Of a stretch of DNA of 64,000 nt, positions 56,636 to 63,778 are shown piece after piece. Numbering within the stretch: position 1 is the stretch's first letter; each line of letters starts with the position of its first letter. Where the stretch lies: contig NZ_JAFIDJ010000001.1 in NCBI RefSeq assembly GCF_017051705.1, forward strand, positions 1,517,786 to 1,581,785, in the 5' to 3' direction. The DNA is from Algoriphagus lutimaris (GTDB taxonomy: Bacteria; Bacteroidota; Bacteroidia; Cytophagales; Cyclobacteriaceae). The translations under genes were made by a program, and so were the position numbers. The notes under the pieces are model-generated. The model saw nothing but the letters and a program-made list of their open reading frames with translations. It searched no databases and was not told the DNA's origin.

Positions 56636-57001
56636 TTAGACCAATTCAAATGGCCATAATAATAATCCCTGTTTAAGATTAATCACCTCCTTAAAACCCA
56701 TTTCATTCATGATTGCACAAGCCATTCCACTTCTATTTCCACTTCTACAGTAAATCAAATAAGTTTTATCCTTTGATAGATTTTGAATTAGATTCATAAA
56801 ATTACTTGAGGATACATCAAGATTAAAAGCCCCTCTAATTTTTCCTCCTTCAAATTCACCAGCTGATCTTACGTCCATTACCATTGTATGAGACATTATT
56901 GCCAAATCTTGAAATTCACCGGAAGCAATTTCTCTATATTTCTTGGACAAAGGACTGGGAGAATTATACATAAGATTTAATTTGGGACTAATGTCTTTCA
57001 A
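56636..57001 (-). CDS. Single-domain rhodanese (sulfurtransferase)
   Basis: A 121-residue cytosolic rhodanese with the persulfide-carrying Cys85 in a CRSGNRS active-site loop (YLIYCRSGNRSGMA). It is the size of GlpE-like enzymes. It moves sulfane sulfur, for example from thiosulfate or glutathione persulfide, to thiol acceptors. It follows the TauE/SafE exporter gene by 41 bp on the same strand, and both lie close to a Crp/Fnr regulator gene. That arrangement points to sulfide/sulfite handling. Confidence 0.9.
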   Translation of the reverse strand: MKDISPKLNLMYNSPSPLSKKYREIASGEFQDLAIMSHTMVMDVRSAGEFEGGKIRGAFNLDVSSSNFMNLIQNLSKDKTYLIYCRSGNRSGMACAIMNEMGFKEVINLKQGLLLWPFELV

Positions 57002-57042: not shown

Positions 57043-57849
57043 CTATACGAAAATCAGTTCTTTCGAAATAATATAAATACCCATACCAAGCACAAACCAT
57101 CCAAATCCCTTTTTCAGTACTTTTTCATTTATCTTTTTGGACAAGGAACTTCCAATAAAAATCCCTACGATTGATAAACCTGTAAAAATGATCAACATCT
57201 TCCAATCAATTGTTTGGTTTGCCAAGTCTCCAAGAAATCCTATGAGAGATTTAGCAGATATAATCAATAAAGAAGTACCTACAGCCATTTTCATTGGTAG
57301 TTTTGCTAGTATCACCAAGGCAGGAATGATCAAGAATCCTCCACCAGCTCCAACTATACCTGTCACAAGTCCAACTACAGACCCTTCTAATGCGATCATG
57401 GGGAAGTTAAACTTCACCTCTCCATTTCCTTCTTCTTTATTTGCCTTTTTATCCTTGATCATTGAATAGGAGGCTGCCAACATGATAATCGAGAAAAATA
57501 CCATAATCCCAACGCTTTTTGCCAATTCAAACCCTCCAATAGTAAATAAGGGGTCTGGCAAAGCAGGAACCAGGAATTTTCTTGTTAAAAAGACTGCGAT
57601 AAATGAAGGGATCGCAAAAACCAAAGCGGTCTTATAATCCACCAAATTCTTCTTCATATAAGTAAAGGATCCTACTAAAGAAGTACTACCTACCACAAAT
57701 AGCGAATAGGCAGTTGCCAACACTGGCTCGACGCCTAAGATGTATACAAGTACAGGAACTGTCAATATAGACCCTCCTCCACCAATTAGTCCTAGTGAGA
57801 CTCCGATGACTACTGCAGATGCAAATCCTATAATATTTACTAAATCCAT
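57043..57849 (-). CDS. TauE/SafE-family sulfite exporter
   Basis: The 268-residue membrane protein has about eight hydrophobic segments in two similar halves. Each half has the family's glycine-rich helix: GLIGGGGSILTVPVLVY near residue 22 and GIVGAGGGFLIIPALV near residue 164. TauE/SafE proteins export sulfite, sulfoacetate or related anions. It heads an operon with the rhodanese gene. A dyad with GTGA half-sites at 57905-57918 and a -7 element at 57875-57882 lie upstream. Confidence 0.9.
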   Translation of the reverse strand: MDLVNIIGFASAVVIGVSLGLIGGGGSILTVPVLVYILGVEPVLATAYSLFVVGSTSLVGSFTYMKKNLVDYKTALVFAIPSFIAVFLTRKFLVPALPDPLFTIGGFELAKSVGIMVFFSIIMLAASYSMIKDKKANKEEGNGEVKFNFPMIALEGSVVGLVTGIVGAGGGFLIIPALVILAKLPMKMAVGTSLLIISAKSLIGFLGDLANQTIDWKMLIIFTGLSIVGIFIGSSLSKKINEKVLKKGFGWFVLGMGIYIISKELIFV

Positions 57850-57874: not shown

Positions 57875-57918
57875 CAAAAGTACGTTCACTTGAAGCGGGA
57901 AGTAGTGACAAATGTTAC
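57875..57918 (-). promoter_or_regulatory. Crp/Fnr-type site and promoter of the TauE-rhodanese operon
   Basis: GTGAC-AAAT-GTTAC (57905-57918) is an imperfect dyad of CRP type. On the minus strand TACTTTTG (57882-57875) follows, with 29.5 bp from dyad centre to the element. Assuming a start near 57869, the dyad lies at about -41.5, the class II position. There is no -33 box, as expected for an activated promoter. Binding is inferred. Confidence 0.6.
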
Positions 57919-58059
57919 ACTTGATTGTAAAATAAAAATAAGTTCAAAGAACCATGCCTGATGGTAGAATTAGAATCTACAAAGAATTTAAAAAAGAAAA
58001 CAAATCGAATGATATCCCGAAGAACCATTTTTTGTAAATTATAAAAAAAACAGGTTACT

Positions 58060-58863
58060 ATGAGAATTTTACTGCCTTTAGATTTTTCCGAAAATTCAAA
58101 AAAAACCTTTGACTTCGCGATTGTTCTTGCAAAAAAGAAGAATGCTACGATTACCATTCTTCATGTCATCGAGGCAATTTATGATTTTGCGGCTCAAGCA
58201 GCTATTGTAATAGATGGAATGCATAGAGATGCTGAAAAATACATAAAAGGGCTTATTGAAAAAAATAAAAATGAAGGAGTTAAAATGGATTACCTCATCC
58301 AAGAGGGTACGGTTTCGATCATGACAGCAAGAACGGCCGAAGAAATTAAAGCCGATTTAATAGTTTTAGGAACGCACGGAGCAAGTGGAATTGAACAGAA
58401 ATTATTTGGAAGCACCTCGGTAGAGGTAGTAAAGAATTCAGTTTGTCCGGTACTTTTAGTACCAAGCGAAACTAAAATCGATCACATTGAAAAAGTAACT
58501 CTTGCATTGGAATTTGCCGAACATGAAGAGCCTTTTATAGAAAGGGTAATCTCGTTAAGTAAGAACTGGAATTTACAATTAGAATTTCTTCACATTCAAT
58601 TAAAGAAGAATTTTAAAGAAGAGCTTTGCGCGCTGGGCTTAGAGGCTTTTGTACAGAAAAAACATTCAGAGATTCCTGTAAAACTTCATACTTTTTATTC
58701 GGAAGATTTGATTAATGGTCTGGAACAATACCTGGCTAAAAATGATGACACCATTCTTGTCATGTGCCATCATCATAAAAACCTTTGGGAGCAAATCCTT
58801 ACAAAGAGTAAATCTTTACAAATGGCCTATCATACACACGTTCCCCTCCTAATCATGACTTGA
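58060..58863 (+). CDS. Universal stress protein with two UspA domains
   Basis: A 267-residue tandem UspA protein. Domain one (residues 1-145) starts MRILLPLDFSENSKKTFDFA and has the ATP-type loop GTHGASGIEQKLFGSTSVEVV. Domain two (~150-267) is diverged and lacks the full glycine loop. UspA proteins help cells survive stress, often with ATP. The gene is divergent from tauE and convergent with the Crp/Fnr gene with no bases between the stops (58863/58864). I found no Crp-type site specific to this gene. Confidence 0.93.
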   Translation: MRILLPLDFSENSKKTFDFAIVLAKKKNATITILHVIEAIYDFAAQAAIVIDGMHRDAEKYIKGLIEKNKNEGVKMDYLIQEGTVSIMTARTAEEIKADLIVLGTHGASGIEQKLFGSTSVEVVKNSVCPVLLVPSETKIDHIEKVTLALEFAEHEEPFIERVISLSKNWNLQLEFLHIQLKKNFKEELCALGLEAFVQKKHSEIPVKLHTFYSEDLINGLEQYLAKNDDTILVMCHHHKNLWEQILTKSKSLQMAYHTHVPLLIMT

Positions 58864-59520
58864 TTATTTACTAATCAACTCTTCAAAATCATCACGGATA
58901 TAGATCACATTCCTACCCAGTTCAATCCACTTTTTCTTCTCCAATTGCTTTAATAATCTCGAAATTACTTCACGGGAGGTTCCCAATTCATTGGCGATTT
59001 CTTGATGCGTGGTATGAAGTTCATTGGCTTTATGTTGTTTCATTTTAGTTACAATATATCGCATCAAGCGTTCATCCATTCGTTTGAAGGCAACGGCGTC
59101 TAAAGCAACCAGCATTTCCTGAAATCTACTTTGGTAGGTATTGGAGACAAAGTCTTTCCATTGCCTGAATTCATCCGTCCATTGTTCATGTACTGCAATC
59201 GGAATTCCAACCAACGTGGTATCCTCTTCTACTATTGCTCTTATCTCACTTGGTTTGGAAGCAAGGCAACAGGTCAAAGACAAGGCACAGGTTTCACCGG
59301 CATCCAAATAATACAAAAACAGCTCTTTCCCTTCTTCATCCATTCTAAGAATTTTAATGGAACCTTCTAAAACGATAGGCACCATTTTTACGAACTGGCC
59401 AGGCTCCATTAGCACTTTGCCAGCTGCCAAATGAATAATTTGACCTTTATCCAAAATTGCCTGAAGCAGTTTGGGGTCGGTAAAATTGGGTAAGTACGAT
59501 TTAAGCTCTTCTAGATTCAT
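58864..59520 (-). CDS. Crp/Fnr-family transcriptional regulator
   Basis: The 218-residue protein has an N-terminal cyclic-nucleotide-like beta-roll (residues ~20-115), a dimer helix and a C-terminal winged helix (~165-210, TTHQEIANELGTSREVISRL). The recognition helix carries R-E-x3-R as in E. coli CRP (Arg180, Glu181, Arg185), which reads GTGA. Cys78, Cys84 and Cys85 lie in the sensor domain; FNR-type four-Cys iron-sulfur ligands are absent. The effector is unknown; the thiols make a redox or sulfur signal plausible. A perfect GTGAT-N4-ATCAC dyad precedes its own start. Confidence 0.92.
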   Translation of the reverse strand: MNLEELKSYLPNFTDPKLLQAILDKGQIIHLAAGKVLMEPGQFVKMVPIVLEGSIKILRMDEEGKELFLYYLDAGETCALSLTCCLASKPSEIRAIVEEDTTLVGIPIAVHEQWTDEFRQWKDFVSNTYQSRFQEMLVALDAVAFKRMDERLMRYIVTKMKQHKANELHTTHQEIANELGTSREVISRLLKQLEKKKWIELGRNVIYIRDDFEELISK

Positions 59521-59533
59521 AATGCATAAAAAT

Positions 59534-59577
59534 CAAATTTAAGAAGTAGTGGAAAGCAAATAGGTGATAAAAATCAC
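59534..59577 (-). promoter_or_regulatory. Autoregulatory Crp/Fnr-type site and promoter
   Basis: GTGAT-AAAA-ATCAC (59564-59577) is a perfect inverted repeat. On the minus strand TAAATTTG (59541-59534), a full TAnnTTTG, follows at 29.5 bp from the dyad centre, the same spacing as before tauE. The start would lie near 59528, leaving a leader of only about 8 nt. Confidence 0.6.
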
Positions 59578-59656: not shown

Positions 59657-62600
59657 TTAACAGGTTGGACAGCAAACATAAGGAACTTTGGTGAGAGGTG
59701 AAGTCCTCAATATCCTAAAATGTCCCAAACCCCTACTCAAAGGTCTAATGGTCGAAACTAAATTAGTTGCAGCTTTTTTAGCTTTCAATCCCTCAGCAAA
59801 CCTTCCTGACACCTCTCCTGACCTTTGACTTCTAGATTGATTCAAGTGATCATGGATATTGGTAATATTCCCAAAGACCTCTACTACCAACACACTCAAG
59901 GGACTATCTTCTGGCAAGCCTAATTGCTTGAGTTTATCAGCAATATCCTGGGAGGTAACGACTGCTGTACCCACAGGATGCTCATCTTTTATTGAAGCAA
60001 TTAAATTTCCTGTTTTAATCAAATCAGGATTGATGCTGACACTTCCTTTGGTATAATCTCCAATGGTCGGTTTGAAATAAACCTGCTGTGTCAAGTCATT
60101 TATTTTTTTCAATTCTTTCGGATCCGTATTCACTCTAACACCGATTTTCATCTCGATCTCACCTAATAAAATGTTTCTAAAATCCCTCCCATCAGCTTGG
60201 AAAACTTGCGCATATACCAATGTCCAGAGACTGGTCCTTGGAGGTTTTGAAGTTACATTCTTACCATTATGCACTGCTTTCGCATAAGGTGCACTGACAT
60301 ATAAATGATTTTTGCTTCGGTTCAAAGAGCAAAGTAGCGTCGGTGCAGGATGTTGTACACCTGTTACCCTCAATGGTCTTCCAAACCTACCTTGGGCTGT
60401 AGACCAAAGATTATCTTCTCTATCTGGCCAATGACCATGCCCCACCCGGAATTCATAGGTGAAAAACCCAAACATTTCAGGACTTTCTGCATGCATCCCG
60501 GACGGAATAGGAAGTATATAATGTCGGTCACTGTCATTTGCAGCTGTCATGGGTTGCATCGCAGCAATCCCAGCCTTATCATCACTTTGTCCAGGAATAA
60601 TCTGTCTGGTTAATTCCGGATCCAAACTAATGGCTGCTTCTTCCGGAGGAACAAACTGATCCCCTTCATTACTGGCCAACAGTTGATCCGGAGCATTGCC
60701 CAATACACGACAATAATAGGTGTCATCAGGATTCTCCACAGGTTGATCAAATTCAACCCATAAATACCTTTTCCTCGCCTCAGAAGAACTATAATCATCC
60801 GATCTTTCATAAGGTGAAAAGGCAATCCCTACACTGACTAATTTTGGGACTTGAGCTGGAGGTAAAACAGTTGGAAGCGTCAACTGATCCGTTTCAATGA
60901 TAGAGGGTTCCGGATGACCTGATTTTACATTGGGCTTGATTTTATATTCTGCCCATATTTCATCTGGAAATCTTAGTTCACCATTGGGTTGTTTGAGCTC
61001 ATTTTTGGGGTCTAAGGCATCAATGTAAATGATTCTCGTATAATTTCGATTGACCCGATCAAAGCTATCTGCCTGCAGTGCTTCAAAGGAAACCGTATGC
61101 TTGATTTCAATATCTCCTAAATAGGTATTTACTCTTGTCTCGGATTCAGCATCCTTTCGGTATTTATATGCCCTTTCGATCACAAAACCCACATCTTCCA
61201 AGGAATCCCAGGCCCAGTCTCTATTGATTTTATAACTTAAAGTCGCTAGCCAATGGTTATAAAGGTCTGCCTTGGTAGCAAATGTAATAGAACTCCCATC
61301 GGGAGCAAGGGTATGTCTGATCCTTGAATTACATCCAAATGCAATTCGTTCCCCTTTAGGGGCCACCAAGGTTAAGCCTTTGGCCTTCACCCCTAAGGCA
61401 TCTGCCAATCTTTCTACCACTCCTGATTGTTCCTCTTCTGAATTTCTCCTTAATAATGATTTATAAATATTACCCTTTACTGTTGAAACTGAGTCGGGTT
61501 TTAAAAACAAAGCCTGCACTGGAGCAATCGCCTCAAATGGCTGCAATAAATCTTCCTCCGTGCTAGGTTCTTTATACAACATAAACTGTTGATTTTTACC
61601 ATAGCGACTATCTTTATCCTCATCTTCATCAATAAAGCCAAAATAACTTTCAGGAGCTTCATCGCTGACTGCCACAGCTCTCATTGAAATCCTAATATGT
61701 CTTCCTGTTGGCAAAACCAATCCTTCCATCGCGTTGAGATCGTCTATCAACAAATCATCTCTTAAGAAAGGATTGGCGGGCTCTCCTAAATTCAACACAG
61801 GAACATCAATGAATTCCATAGGAATAGTGAGCGTACCATCAAAATCCCCTGGGAAAAATCTGTTTGTTTCATACAAGGTGATAAAGCTATCATCACCTTT
61901 TTGACTTAACTGAGTATCCATCCTAAGAGACTTTACCTCTACCCTGATCTTCACATGAGTCACATCAGGATCAGACAAGGCAGGTTTTAATCCATCTTCC
62001 TGGAAAGGCAAAGCTTTCAAAAGTGCCACTGGATCCTGACCTATTCCTTGGTATTTATTGGTAAAGACTACAGCCGGATATTCTAACAAAGGTCGCTGAA
62101 TCGAAAAACTTGGATTCGGGTCAAATTGCGTTTCATCATCATCCAAAGCATTGAAATAAGTCCTTAGATTACTTCTGATCTCTACCGGCTTCTCAATCCT
62201 CAACATTGCCGGATTTACAAACCTCTTGAAAGAGACGCTGGTTTCAGGACTCGGTGCGGCATTTAAAGGTTCATCTTCCAAATTTGGTCCTCCACCTGAA
62301 ATATCAGTCATTCTAATCCTGAATTCGTAGGTATTACCATATCGAAGCTGAGTTGTCAATGGAGTAGGAATCAAGGTCTTATTCTGAACTACTTTTTTAT
62401 CTTGCACCACATCCTGAATGCCTCCATTGTCTTCATGGTTTCTATAGATTTCCAAAGCATCCTGATCCTCGGTTACAAGATTTTTTCCAATCCATTGGGC
62501 ATAATACATGGGCAACCAATAATGGTCGCTGTTTGGGCCACTGATTTTATTCGGGTAAACTTGGTAAGGAAGCTCCGTTGAACTTGAGTCAAGTTGACCT

Positions 62601-63778
62601 GAAAACATATTTTCAGATTCATTGATTTCAATGCTATTCAAACTTTCCCAATCATTACCGGGGCTTGCATGCCTCACATCTATATGGTATCCCATGACTC
62701 CTAAAGGAGCATCAATCCGCTCATTAGAACCCGGATCTGAAGGATTTTCTATCATTTGACGCAGGTACCAAACAAGAATCTGTTCATCATCCCACCCTAA
62801 GCGAATACCAGAATCGGATTGAGGAGGTAATTCGTCTTGTGTTTCCTCTAATAAATTACCACTGACCGGTTGGTTGGCATGTACGATTTTGGCAAACCCA
62901 TCATTATAAGTTTGAGCCTCCATGAACAACTCATCCCAAGGACCTAATGGCACAGGTTCACTTGCGTCAGATACCTTTTTATATAAAACAGGAAACAAAA
63001 CTGGGGCAAATACAGGGCGGCTTTCTCCCATCATTAATGTTGGGATTTTTGCAGCATATCGCTTGATCAAAGGTCCATCAGCATGTTCAAGCAATCCGGC
63101 CTGGGCCACTGCATAAGGGTCATTTATTATATCCGCATAGATATATCCCCCATCTTCAAACCAATCTGCCTGGACTTGAAGCTGTACTTCATAAATCATC
63201 CCGCAGGCTTTCGCTAATAAAGGTTGTCTCAAAATGTTGGCAAATACTTTACCCCAACTCAACTCCGTCCTGGGTTGGTAATTGATAGTTGGAATTTTAT
63301 CCCGAACGGCGCAATGGTATCCATCATCCGTCACGGCATTGGGGTGTCTAGGCTGGGTGAAATTGAAACGATCTCGATAGGAAAACGGCAAGTATTTTTT
63401 AATACTGTTTTCGACTGGTACTGGGGCAGGTAATTTATCCGTGTTATCTGTGATAGGCAAAGGCATTGCATCAGCCACTTTCTGTATTATATCGGCTTTA
63501 TTTGTTGCCGGTATCACATTCACAGCTTGTACAATTGGAATTCTACTAGGAGCTGTAGCATTGCTCAAAGGGAAATCTTCTGATCCTCTGACAATAGACA
63601 AACTAAACTCAGGTTGAAAGTTTGCAAACCCTGGCACATTGGCTGGATTGGGTAAGCCGGTAGACCAAGTTGAAAACGGATTTGTATTCCTTGGCACTAC
63701 GACAATATTTAAAGTCAGCGTATTCCCATCAAATCGCTGAGGAAAAGTCATTAAGGATATCAATCTTTTAGGTTCCAT
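59657..63778 (-). CDS. Very large protein of unknown family (1373 residues)
   Basis: The single frame from ATG 63778 encodes 1373 residues with no signal peptide and no membrane segment, so it should be cytoplasmic. It is acidic to neutral and rich in Pro, Asp, Tyr and Trp. It looks like several beta-rich domains in tandem with a few longer helices near the C-terminus (residues ~1250-1330, including DIADKLKQLGLPEDSPLSVL). It ends in a Cys-rich tail (VCCPTC). I recognise no motif, catalytic triad or nucleotide-binding loop. It is preceded 22 bp upstream by a gene cut by the window edge and followed by a strong terminator. Base composition resembles its neighbours, so recent transfer is not obvious. 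Confidence 0.8.
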   Translation of the reverse strand: MEPKRLISLMTFPQRFDGNTLTLNIVVVPRNTNPFSTWSTGLPNPANVPGFANFQPEFSLSIVRGSEDFPLSNATAPSRIPIVQAVNVIPATNKADIIQKVADAMPLPITDNTDKLPAPVPVENSIKKYLPFSYRDRFNFTQPRHPNAVTDDGYHCAVRDKIPTINYQPRTELSWGKVFANILRQPLLAKACGMIYEVQLQVQADWFEDGGYIYADIINDPYAVAQAGLLEHADGPLIKRYAAKIPTLMMGESRPVFAPVLFPVLYKKVSDASEPVPLGPWDELFMEAQTYNDGFAKIVHANQPVSGNLLEETQDELPPQSDSGIRLGWDDEQILVWYLRQMIENPSDPGSNERIDAPLGVMGYHIDVRHASPGNDWESLNSIEINESENMFSGQLDSSSTELPYQVYPNKISGPNSDHYWLPMYYAQWIGKNLVTEDQDALEIYRNHEDNGGIQDVVQDKKVVQNKTLIPTPLTTQLRYGNTYEFRIRMTDISGGGPNLEDEPLNAAPSPETSVSFKRFVNPAMLRIEKPVEIRSNLRTYFNALDDDETQFDPNPSFSIQRPLLEYPAVVFTNKYQGIGQDPVALLKALPFQEDGLKPALSDPDVTHVKIRVEVKSLRMDTQLSQKGDDSFITLYETNRFFPGDFDGTLTIPMEFIDVPVLNLGEPANPFLRDDLLIDDLNAMEGLVLPTGRHIRISMRAVAVSDEAPESYFGFIDEDEDKDSRYGKNQQFMLYKEPSTEEDLLQPFEAIAPVQALFLKPDSVSTVKGNIYKSLLRRNSEEEQSGVVERLADALGVKAKGLTLVAPKGERIAFGCNSRIRHTLAPDGSSITFATKADLYNHWLATLSYKINRDWAWDSLEDVGFVIERAYKYRKDAESETRVNTYLGDIEIKHTVSFEALQADSFDRVNRNYTRIIYIDALDPKNELKQPNGELRFPDEIWAEYKIKPNVKSGHPEPSIIETDQLTLPTVLPPAQVPKLVSVGIAFSPYERSDDYSSSEARKRYLWVEFDQPVENPDDTYYCRVLGNAPDQLLASNEGDQFVPPEEAAISLDPELTRQIIPGQSDDKAGIAAMQPMTAANDSDRHYILPIPSGMHAESPEMFGFFTYEFRVGHGHWPDREDNLWSTAQGRFGRPLRVTGVQHPAPTLLCSLNRSKNHLYVSAPYAKAVHNGKNVTSKPPRTSLWTLVYAQVFQADGRDFRNILLGEIEMKIGVRVNTDPKELKKINDLTQQVYFKPTIGDYTKGSVSINPDLIKTGNLIASIKDEHPVGTAVVTSQDIADKLKQLGLPEDSPLSVLVVEVFGNITNIHDHLNQSRSQRSGEVSGRFAEGLKAKKAATNLVSTIRPLSRGLGHFRILRTSPLTKVPYVCCPTC

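Follow-up and report, generated by a model that had tools for sequence, protein, structure and literature searches.

In E. coli CRP, the helix residues R180, E181 and R185 read the half-site GTGA, with the first arginine reading its G, and Glu72, Arg82 and Ser83 contact cAMP. Class II activation by this protein uses a spacing of 29.5 bp, from -41.5 to -12. FNR, in turn, holds its 4Fe-4S cluster with four cysteines, three of which lie near the N-terminus. Sulfide and sulfane-sulfur handling, the role predicted for the regulator described here, is the domain of SqrR/BigR (ArsR), CstR (CsoR), and FisR (a sigma-54 activator), none of which belongs to the Crp/Fnr superfamily and whose folds are unrelated to it. 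According to PMC9774590, cysteine pairs are the sensors in this group, and the title of the FisR paper presents that protein as an activator acting with sigma-54. A Crp-like protein of Acinetobacter baumannii was found to be persulfidated in sulfide-treated cells (PMC7315123). It resembles the proposed regulator as a Crp-type protein modified by sulfane sulfur, but it is a close relative of cAMP-CRP, and that paper gives the effect of the modification as not known. Among the literature matches listed, which are partial texts and leave most subscription journals outside their coverage, no Crp/Fnr-type or Bacteroidota regulator of sulfide or sulfane sulfur was described; such a report may exist.

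The locus analyzed here lies in a window of 64,000 nucleotides, by which we mean the whole stretch of DNA under analysis, and comprises a Crp/Fnr-family gene (crp), a tauE-rhodanese gene pair with the rhodanese gene downstream on the same strand, and a gene for a universal stress protein (usp; Table 1). An earlier note, made from the window alone, had reported two dyads of identical geometry, cysteines at positions 78, 84, and 85 of the regulator, and a CRP-like R-E-x3-R helix, all of which were confirmed. On the coding (-) strand, 22 bp separate dyad and TAnnTTTG in both promoters, and the dyad centre is in both cases 29.5 bp from the first T of this element; the tauE dyad has one imperfect half-site, GTTAC. 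In relatives, rhodanese genes have a dyad/-7 site of their own. The observation and most of its interpretation stand, and the finding extends beyond the window. Of the sulfur/stress regulon that had been proposed, the sulfur part held (62 of 78 sites against 1 of 20 controls; see below), while the stress part is weaker: no usp promoter of the dyad/-7 geometry was seen in the window, and 1 of 15 usp homologues has such a site. The idea that the tauE dyad might also drive usp in the opposite direction was considered and rejected, and usp was left out of the regulon because the + strand carries no TAnnTTTG at 22 bp and the site is so rare among its homologues.

Table 1. Positions of the regulator gene, its predicted target genes, usp and the promoter elements in the window.
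Feature	Position	Strand	Remarks
Rhodanese-domain protein, predicted regulon member	56636..57001	-	PF00581 57.3 bits, cut-off 22.2
TauE/SafE-family membrane exporter, predicted regulon member	57043..57849	-	PF01925 156.2 bits, cut-off 32.6
TACTTTTG, predicted -7 element of tauE promoter	57875..57882	-	22 bp from dyad, 25 bp before ATG
Dyad GTGACAAATGTTAC, predicted operator of tauE-rhodanese promoter	57905..57918	.	Geometry kept upstream of tauE
Universal stress protein (usp), between crp and tauE	58060..58863	+	PF00582; synteny in some relatives
Crp/Fnr-family regulator, 218 aa	58864..59520	-	PF13545 and PF00027; GETCALSLTCC; helix TSREVISR
TAAATTTG, predicted -7 element of crp promoter	59534..59541	-	22 bp from dyad, 13 bp before ATG
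Perfect dyad GTGATAAAAATCAC, predicted operator of crp promoter	59564..59577	.	Dyad of at least 7/8 in orthologues

The regulator belongs to PF13545, the C-terminal Crp-type helix-turn-helix (51.9 bits, cut-off 27), and to PF00027, the N-terminal cNMP-binding-type beta-roll (32.8 bits, cut-off 27.5); its other Pfam matches are weak generic HTH and other hits, so that it does not show the domain architecture of SqrR/BigR, CstR, or FisR. With E. coli CRP it shares the fold family, the R-E-x3-R helix, the GTGA-N6-TCAC half-site geometry, and the 29.5-bp dyad spacing. Its helix aligns with SRETVGR of CRP, so that by sequence alignment the GTGA-reading residues correspond to R183, E184, and R188, which are invariant in alignment A1 (49 of the 60 aligned homologues). 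The differences from E. coli CRP are three invariant cysteines, a phylum-specific promoter element, predicted sulfide-oxidation targets, Ala, Lys, and Pro at the positions of the cAMP contacts, and a score of 53.3 bits with the cAMP-CRP model NF008732 (cut-off 266), which places the protein outside that family. It also differs from the 4Fe-4S sensor FNR, since Cys78, Cys84, and Cys85 are its sole cysteines and NF008365 scores 25.2 against 228 bits. All 60 aligned proteins retain these three residues, including those with no more than 47–49% identity. Regulator matches at E<=1e-25, paralogues counted, were found in 117 of 296 genomes of the phylum; the nearest among named genomes are from Algoriphagus (83–92% identity for the top six), in a list of closest matches that may omit records very near the source genome.

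Dyad and spacing differ in what they can tell. Taken alone, the dyad occurs three times in the window if the perfect palindrome is counted once per strand; 0.83 matches are expected, and three are reached in 8 of 100 shuffles. GTGAYN4RTNAC is not enriched genome-wide either (96 matches against 105 for the reversed control), and on its own the dyad therefore has no diagnostic value. Combined with TANNTTTG at a free gap of 7–37 bp, it occurs at seven distinct places of the own genome, compared to two and one in the control searches, and the gap is 22 bp at four of the seven and 23 bp at one. Fixing the gap at 22 bp and allowing up to two mismatches yielded 22 matches, five of them inside genes, against 5 in the control. 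The same preference recurs in 20 relatives, where dyad plus TAnnTTTR gave 139 matches, of which 78 fall on gaps 22–23 out of the 31 gaps allowed (52 at 22, 26 at 23, 11 at 21, and 50 over the other 28). Since the total exceeds the reversed control only modestly (139 against 107), the enrichment signal in the relatives resides in the spacing and not in match totals, which are counted as rows, with a few dyads doubled by two candidate -7 elements and orthologous sites recurring across related genomes. The free dyad position is C or T in 77 of the 78 sites at gaps 22–23, against 35 of 50 outside gaps 21–23. All 20 test relatives were picked among close-orthologue genomes in the light of an earlier result, and crp sites (8 of 78) are favoured because every test genome has such a dyad. 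By comparison, gaps 22–23 account for 7 of 62 matches in 20 genomes of the family that lack a close regulator match, namely those named among the 27 with no match at E<=1e-20.

Six gap-22 sites of the own genome show no more than one mismatch, and five of these precede crp, tauE, and the genes for thioredoxin (trx), persulfide dioxygenase-rhodanese (PDO), and SQR; the sixth (C1:2557693) precedes an apparent P5C dehydrogenase gene, not a sulfur gene. The SQR, thioredoxin, and PDO promoters lie elsewhere in the genome, where they could not be seen from the window, and share the geometry. A 420-aa oxidoreductase gene is preceded by an exact copy of the crp dyad, which starts 65 bp upstream of the ATG and has TAAATTTA after the 22-bp gap. 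The oxidoreductase matches solved mitochondrial SQOR structures at E 5e-111 and stays below the cut-off of the sole scoring NCBIfam SQR model (239.8 against 525 bits). One site lies upstream of the thioredoxin gene and a further one between this gene and that of a 473-aa metallo-beta-lactamase plus rhodanese protein, which we read as PDO because it matches 3tp9 and 3r2u. PDO is followed in the same orientation by a gene that we call porin-like from its context, as it has no Pfam match, and by two Sulf_transp (YeeE/YedE) genes. Among the genes behind sites with two mismatches are those for a redoxin whose best, though sub-threshold, match is the ResA model, for a membrane protein resembling YgaP, and for a member of the fatty-acid-hydroxylase family. 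Judged by eye, similar redoxins are encoded behind sites of this kind in two relatives (at L182 and L192), and a hydroxylase look-alike lies between tauE and rhodanese in a third locus (L057). An 82-aa ACP-like gene (C1:775430) stands behind a gap-23 site, as does its homologue in G082 (L138), and one own-genome match precedes an acetyl-CoA hydrolase gene (L372).

The relatives provide a separate test of target identity, because the reference genes were collected in the own genome, the window included; by descent, the relatives are not independent. The 78 sites at gaps 22–23 are followed first by trx in 20 cases, by rhodanese in 19, by crp and sqr in 8 each, by PDO in 4, by a porin-like gene in 3, and by an ACP-like gene in 1, leaving 15 with no reference gene. 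The sulfur set and crp thus come first at 62 of 78 sites, or at 54 of 70 if crp is left out. The PDO and rhodanese labels may swap, owing to the rhodanese domain of PDO, and a recount by actual alignment starts again gave 62. Among 20 control sites, drawn at random from the 49 matches outside gaps 21–24, one precedes a gene of the sulfur set or crp, and that one is crp at gap 16. Conservation upstream of orthologues is strongest for tauE, where all 29 distinct upstream regions have a dyad of at least 6/8 plus TAnnTTT at gap 22/23 (shuffles predict 0.20), those of named Pontibacter and Rufibacter loci (L294, L295) among them. Counted for the same geometry (at least 6/8, gap 22/23), the site is present in 27 of 79 crp upstream regions (0.55 expected), 6 of 14 for sqr, 5 of 14 for PDO, 1 of 2 for trx, and 2 of 17 for rhodanese, whose genes are there mostly located behind tauE. 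A dyad of at least 7/8 precedes 35 of 59 crp orthologues against 1.9 expected. Autoregulation is not universal, as the other 24 have no such dyad, including five loci of one genus (L099–L102, L105) that keep the tauE site. Excess of the motif over chance at this spacing, its conservation upstream of orthologues, and a preference of the matches for sulfur genes were the checks set by the earlier note, and each turned out in its favour. We are thus highly confident of a promoter family that defines a sulfur regulon.

Which signal the regulator responds to is a more delicate question. Targets and cysteines together incline us towards sulfane sulfur acting via Cys78 and Cys84. Homologues of sqr, pdo, tauE, rhodanese, or yeeE/yedE lie within 6 kb of the regulator in 53 of 80 named loci (the best 80 of 582); the cysteine conservation among these loci is partly due to selection, because the search patterns contained the cysteine motif. 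In two of the 80 (L302, L321) the CC motif is absent as translated, and translation from the alignment start is the suspected cause. Twenty further homologues allow the three cysteines to be told apart. Ten of them are paralogues of 36–44% identity that keep Cys78 and Cys84 and have Ser at position 85, and eight of the remaining ten contain the CC motif. PDO adjoins four CC-motif homologues (L354, L360, L361, L362), and rhodanese plus thioredoxin adjoin another (L355). Two homologues have another residue in place of Cys85 and are nevertheless located beside sulfur genes (L356 with tauE and PDO, L357 with PDO), which makes Cys78 and Cys84 the better candidate pair. The best solved relative by sequence, the Crp/Fnr regulator PDB 3dv8 (E 1.3e-28), which we take to be from Eubacterium rectale, likewise has cysteines at these two positions, but Ile at that of Cys85, and its molecule name gives no function. 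The pair is no proof of sulfane-sulfur sensing, because it is also kept in paralogues away from sulfur genes. The main rival is a broader signal (general redox, O2, NO, or thiol), with the sulfide genes responding only within a redox response. Judged by eye, paralogues with Cys78/Cys84 adjoin apparent cydAB genes (four Ser85 paralogues: L344, L346, L347, L352) and a peroxiredoxin gene, and sites in two relatives (L140, L142) precede an apparent peroxiredoxin gene, as such a signal would lead one to expect. However, the preponderance of sulfide and sulfane-sulfur genes or crp behind the sites, and the linkage of most named regulator loci to the sulfide genes, argue against it, and we regard the broader signal as rather unlikely.

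The mode of action can be approached through the promoters. The -7 element matches the Bacteroidetes consensus TAnnTTTG, for which PMC7366714 names sigma-ABfr; promoters of this kind combine it with TTTG at -33 (PMC7366714, PMC2483708). No conserved TTTG was found at the -33 location in the 78 sites, which exhibit a mildly T-rich stretch 3' of the dyad. Its lack fits activator-dependent promoters and thus suggests positive control. Moreover, the distance between dyad and core promoter is fixed (gaps 22–23 in 78 of 139 matches, at predicted promoters), as in class II activation. The regulator would in this respect differ from SqrR, BigR, and CstR, which repress. Repression by blocking RNA polymerase, with release by a sulfur signal as in SqrR/CstR, could be invoked here too, as a protein on the dyad would reach into the -33 region and might obstruct the polymerase there, and SqrR, BigR, and CstR are repressors according to PMC9774590. 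But a fixed distance of 22–23 bp over unrelated promoters is expected for a class II contact and unneeded for blocking, and the conserved -33 TTTG is absent. We therefore deem a repressor improbable and consider activation, judged from promoter layout, the mode to be expected with good confidence.

That the window protein itself reads the sites appears very probable from its helix and the distribution of sites, and this assignment is stronger than that of its mode. The obvious competitor is another Crp/Fnr protein (G000:C1:1968825, L262), the only other HTH_Crp_2 protein in the own genome at E<=0.001, or else a paralogue, with the window protein as bystander or sharer. This second protein is found in all 20 test genomes, so that presence alone fails to separate the two. 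However, in an alignment by eye its helix, ATESVIR, carries Thr where CRP has the first Arg, and three genomes with a copy of it (49–56% identity) and no close regulator (G010, G071, G147) have 1, 0, and 0 matches at gap 22/23. The PDO genes point the same way: 20 of 20 regulator-bearing genomes carry the site upstream of PDO, against 0 of 10 regulator-lacking ones. The two groups are phylogenetically distinct, however, and PDO of the regulator-lacking genomes shares no more than 38–64% identity with that of the own genome. In 15 of the 20 regulator genomes the PDO site is doubled. As for paralogues, the own genome (4.7 Mb) has no close one. In relatives, the ten Ser85 paralogues have a near-identical recognition helix and three of them (L344, L346, L347) GTGA-N6-TCAC dyads, so some sites there may belong to them. 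Altogether, another reader in place of the window protein seems very improbable. Least of all would we credit a chance resemblance of paired sites in AT-rich intergenic DNA, a reading with which the unenriched dyad-only scan agrees but which spacing peak, orthologue conservation, and target identity contradict, leaving it practically negligible.

The computational analysis establishes the sites, their fixed spacing, the identity of the targets, their conservation, and the co-occurrence of sites and regulator. The explanation that covers them as a whole, and which we consider likely, is a Crp/Fnr class II activator of sulfide-oxidation genes. The SQR, PDO, rhodanese, and exporter genes that its sites predict as targets are those expected of a sulfane-sulfur-responsive regulator. 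According to this model, the window regulator would activate sulfide oxidation in its Algoriphagus-like host. Its dimer would read TGTGAY-N4-RTYAC and, bound 29.5 bp upstream of the -7 element, replace the -33 contact at sigma-ABfr-type promoters. Predicted targets in the own genome are crp itself, tauE-rhodanese, SQR, thioredoxin, and the PDO-rhodanese/porin/YeeE-YedE genes, to which the ResA-like redoxin, the YgaP-like membrane protein, and the fatty-acid-hydroxylase-family protein can probably be added; autoregulation would be confined to lineages with a crp site. Sulfane sulfur or persulfide might be sensed by Cys78 and Cys84, with assistance by Cys85, in the former cAMP pocket.

Relatives of the regulator probably control sulfide oxidation widely in Bacteroidota. 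Whether they amount to a phylum-wide master switch, a Crp/Fnr lineage that exchanged the cyclic-nucleotide pocket for a Cys78/Cys84(/85) sulfane-sulfur sensor while using the class II contact, we regard as an evenly balanced question. The sensor type may predate the phylum, because 3dv8, a solved Crp/Fnr protein from outside the set, has the Cys78/Cys84 pair. In any case, the analysis names a candidate regulator for the SQR, PDO-rhodanese, TauE, and YeeE/YedE genes of Bacteroidota, together with its DNA site, promoter geometry, and targets, and it singles out two or three residues for mutation. Dyad, 22–23 bp, and TAnnTTTG furnish a simple computational rule for finding such regulons in related genomes. 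The regulator would also show class II activation at sigma-ABfr-type -7 promoters and, if its signal is sulfane sulfur, the Crp/Fnr superfamily would join the folds known to sense it.

The predicted autoregulation of the Crp/Fnr regulator gene (crp) is lineage-dependent. In six orthologous loci (L099-L102, L104, and L105), no dyad matching at 7 of 8 positions lies within 130 bp upstream of crp, and yet the tauE promoter of the same loci retains its site; autoregulation therefore varies between lineages. Such a 7/8 dyad is likewise absent from the 130 bp upstream of crp in L078, L082, L087, L089, L091, L092, and L095.

Further features around crp and behind sites, each consisting of a dyad and a TAnnTTTG element, are listed in the table. 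The dehydrogenase-like gene has no evident sulfur connection. The homolog of the acyl carrier protein (ACP)-like gene in the relative G082 (locus L138) is also preceded by a site with a gap of 23 bp between dyad and element.

Features at crp and at further sites (G000, the window's genome; L numbers, fetched loci)
Feature	Location	Strand	Remark
Very long open frame, 1373 aa	window 59657-63778	-	between crp and sqr
Very long open frame, 1767 aa	L076:587-5890	-	between crp and sqr
Well-formed site	G000:C1:2557693-2557736 = L126:12694-12737		32 bp upstream of gene reading as delta-1-pyrroline-5-carboxylate dehydrogenase
Fatty-acid-hydroxylase-family membrane protein	L381:1549-2436		window's genome; own weak site upstream
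Fatty-acid-hydroxylase-family membrane protein	L057:10697-11575		relative; flanked by tauE and rhodanese
Three consecutive small lipoprotein-like genes adjoining ACP-like gene with gap-23 site	L125:5378-6908 and L125:7100-7475		

A second Crp/Fnr lineage is marked by the motif GEACAI-x2-ICS. In four paralogous loci (L344, L346, L347, and L352) the regulator is divergent from genes reading as cydAB (cytochrome bd), and three of them carry a GTGA-N6-TCAC dyad upstream of it. This paralogous lineage possibly represents a sister redox or sulfide regulon. The proposed sensor pair Cys78/Cys84 may itself extend beyond the phylum, as hinted by the sequence alignment with PDB 3dv8, the best solved relative, in which both positions are conserved.
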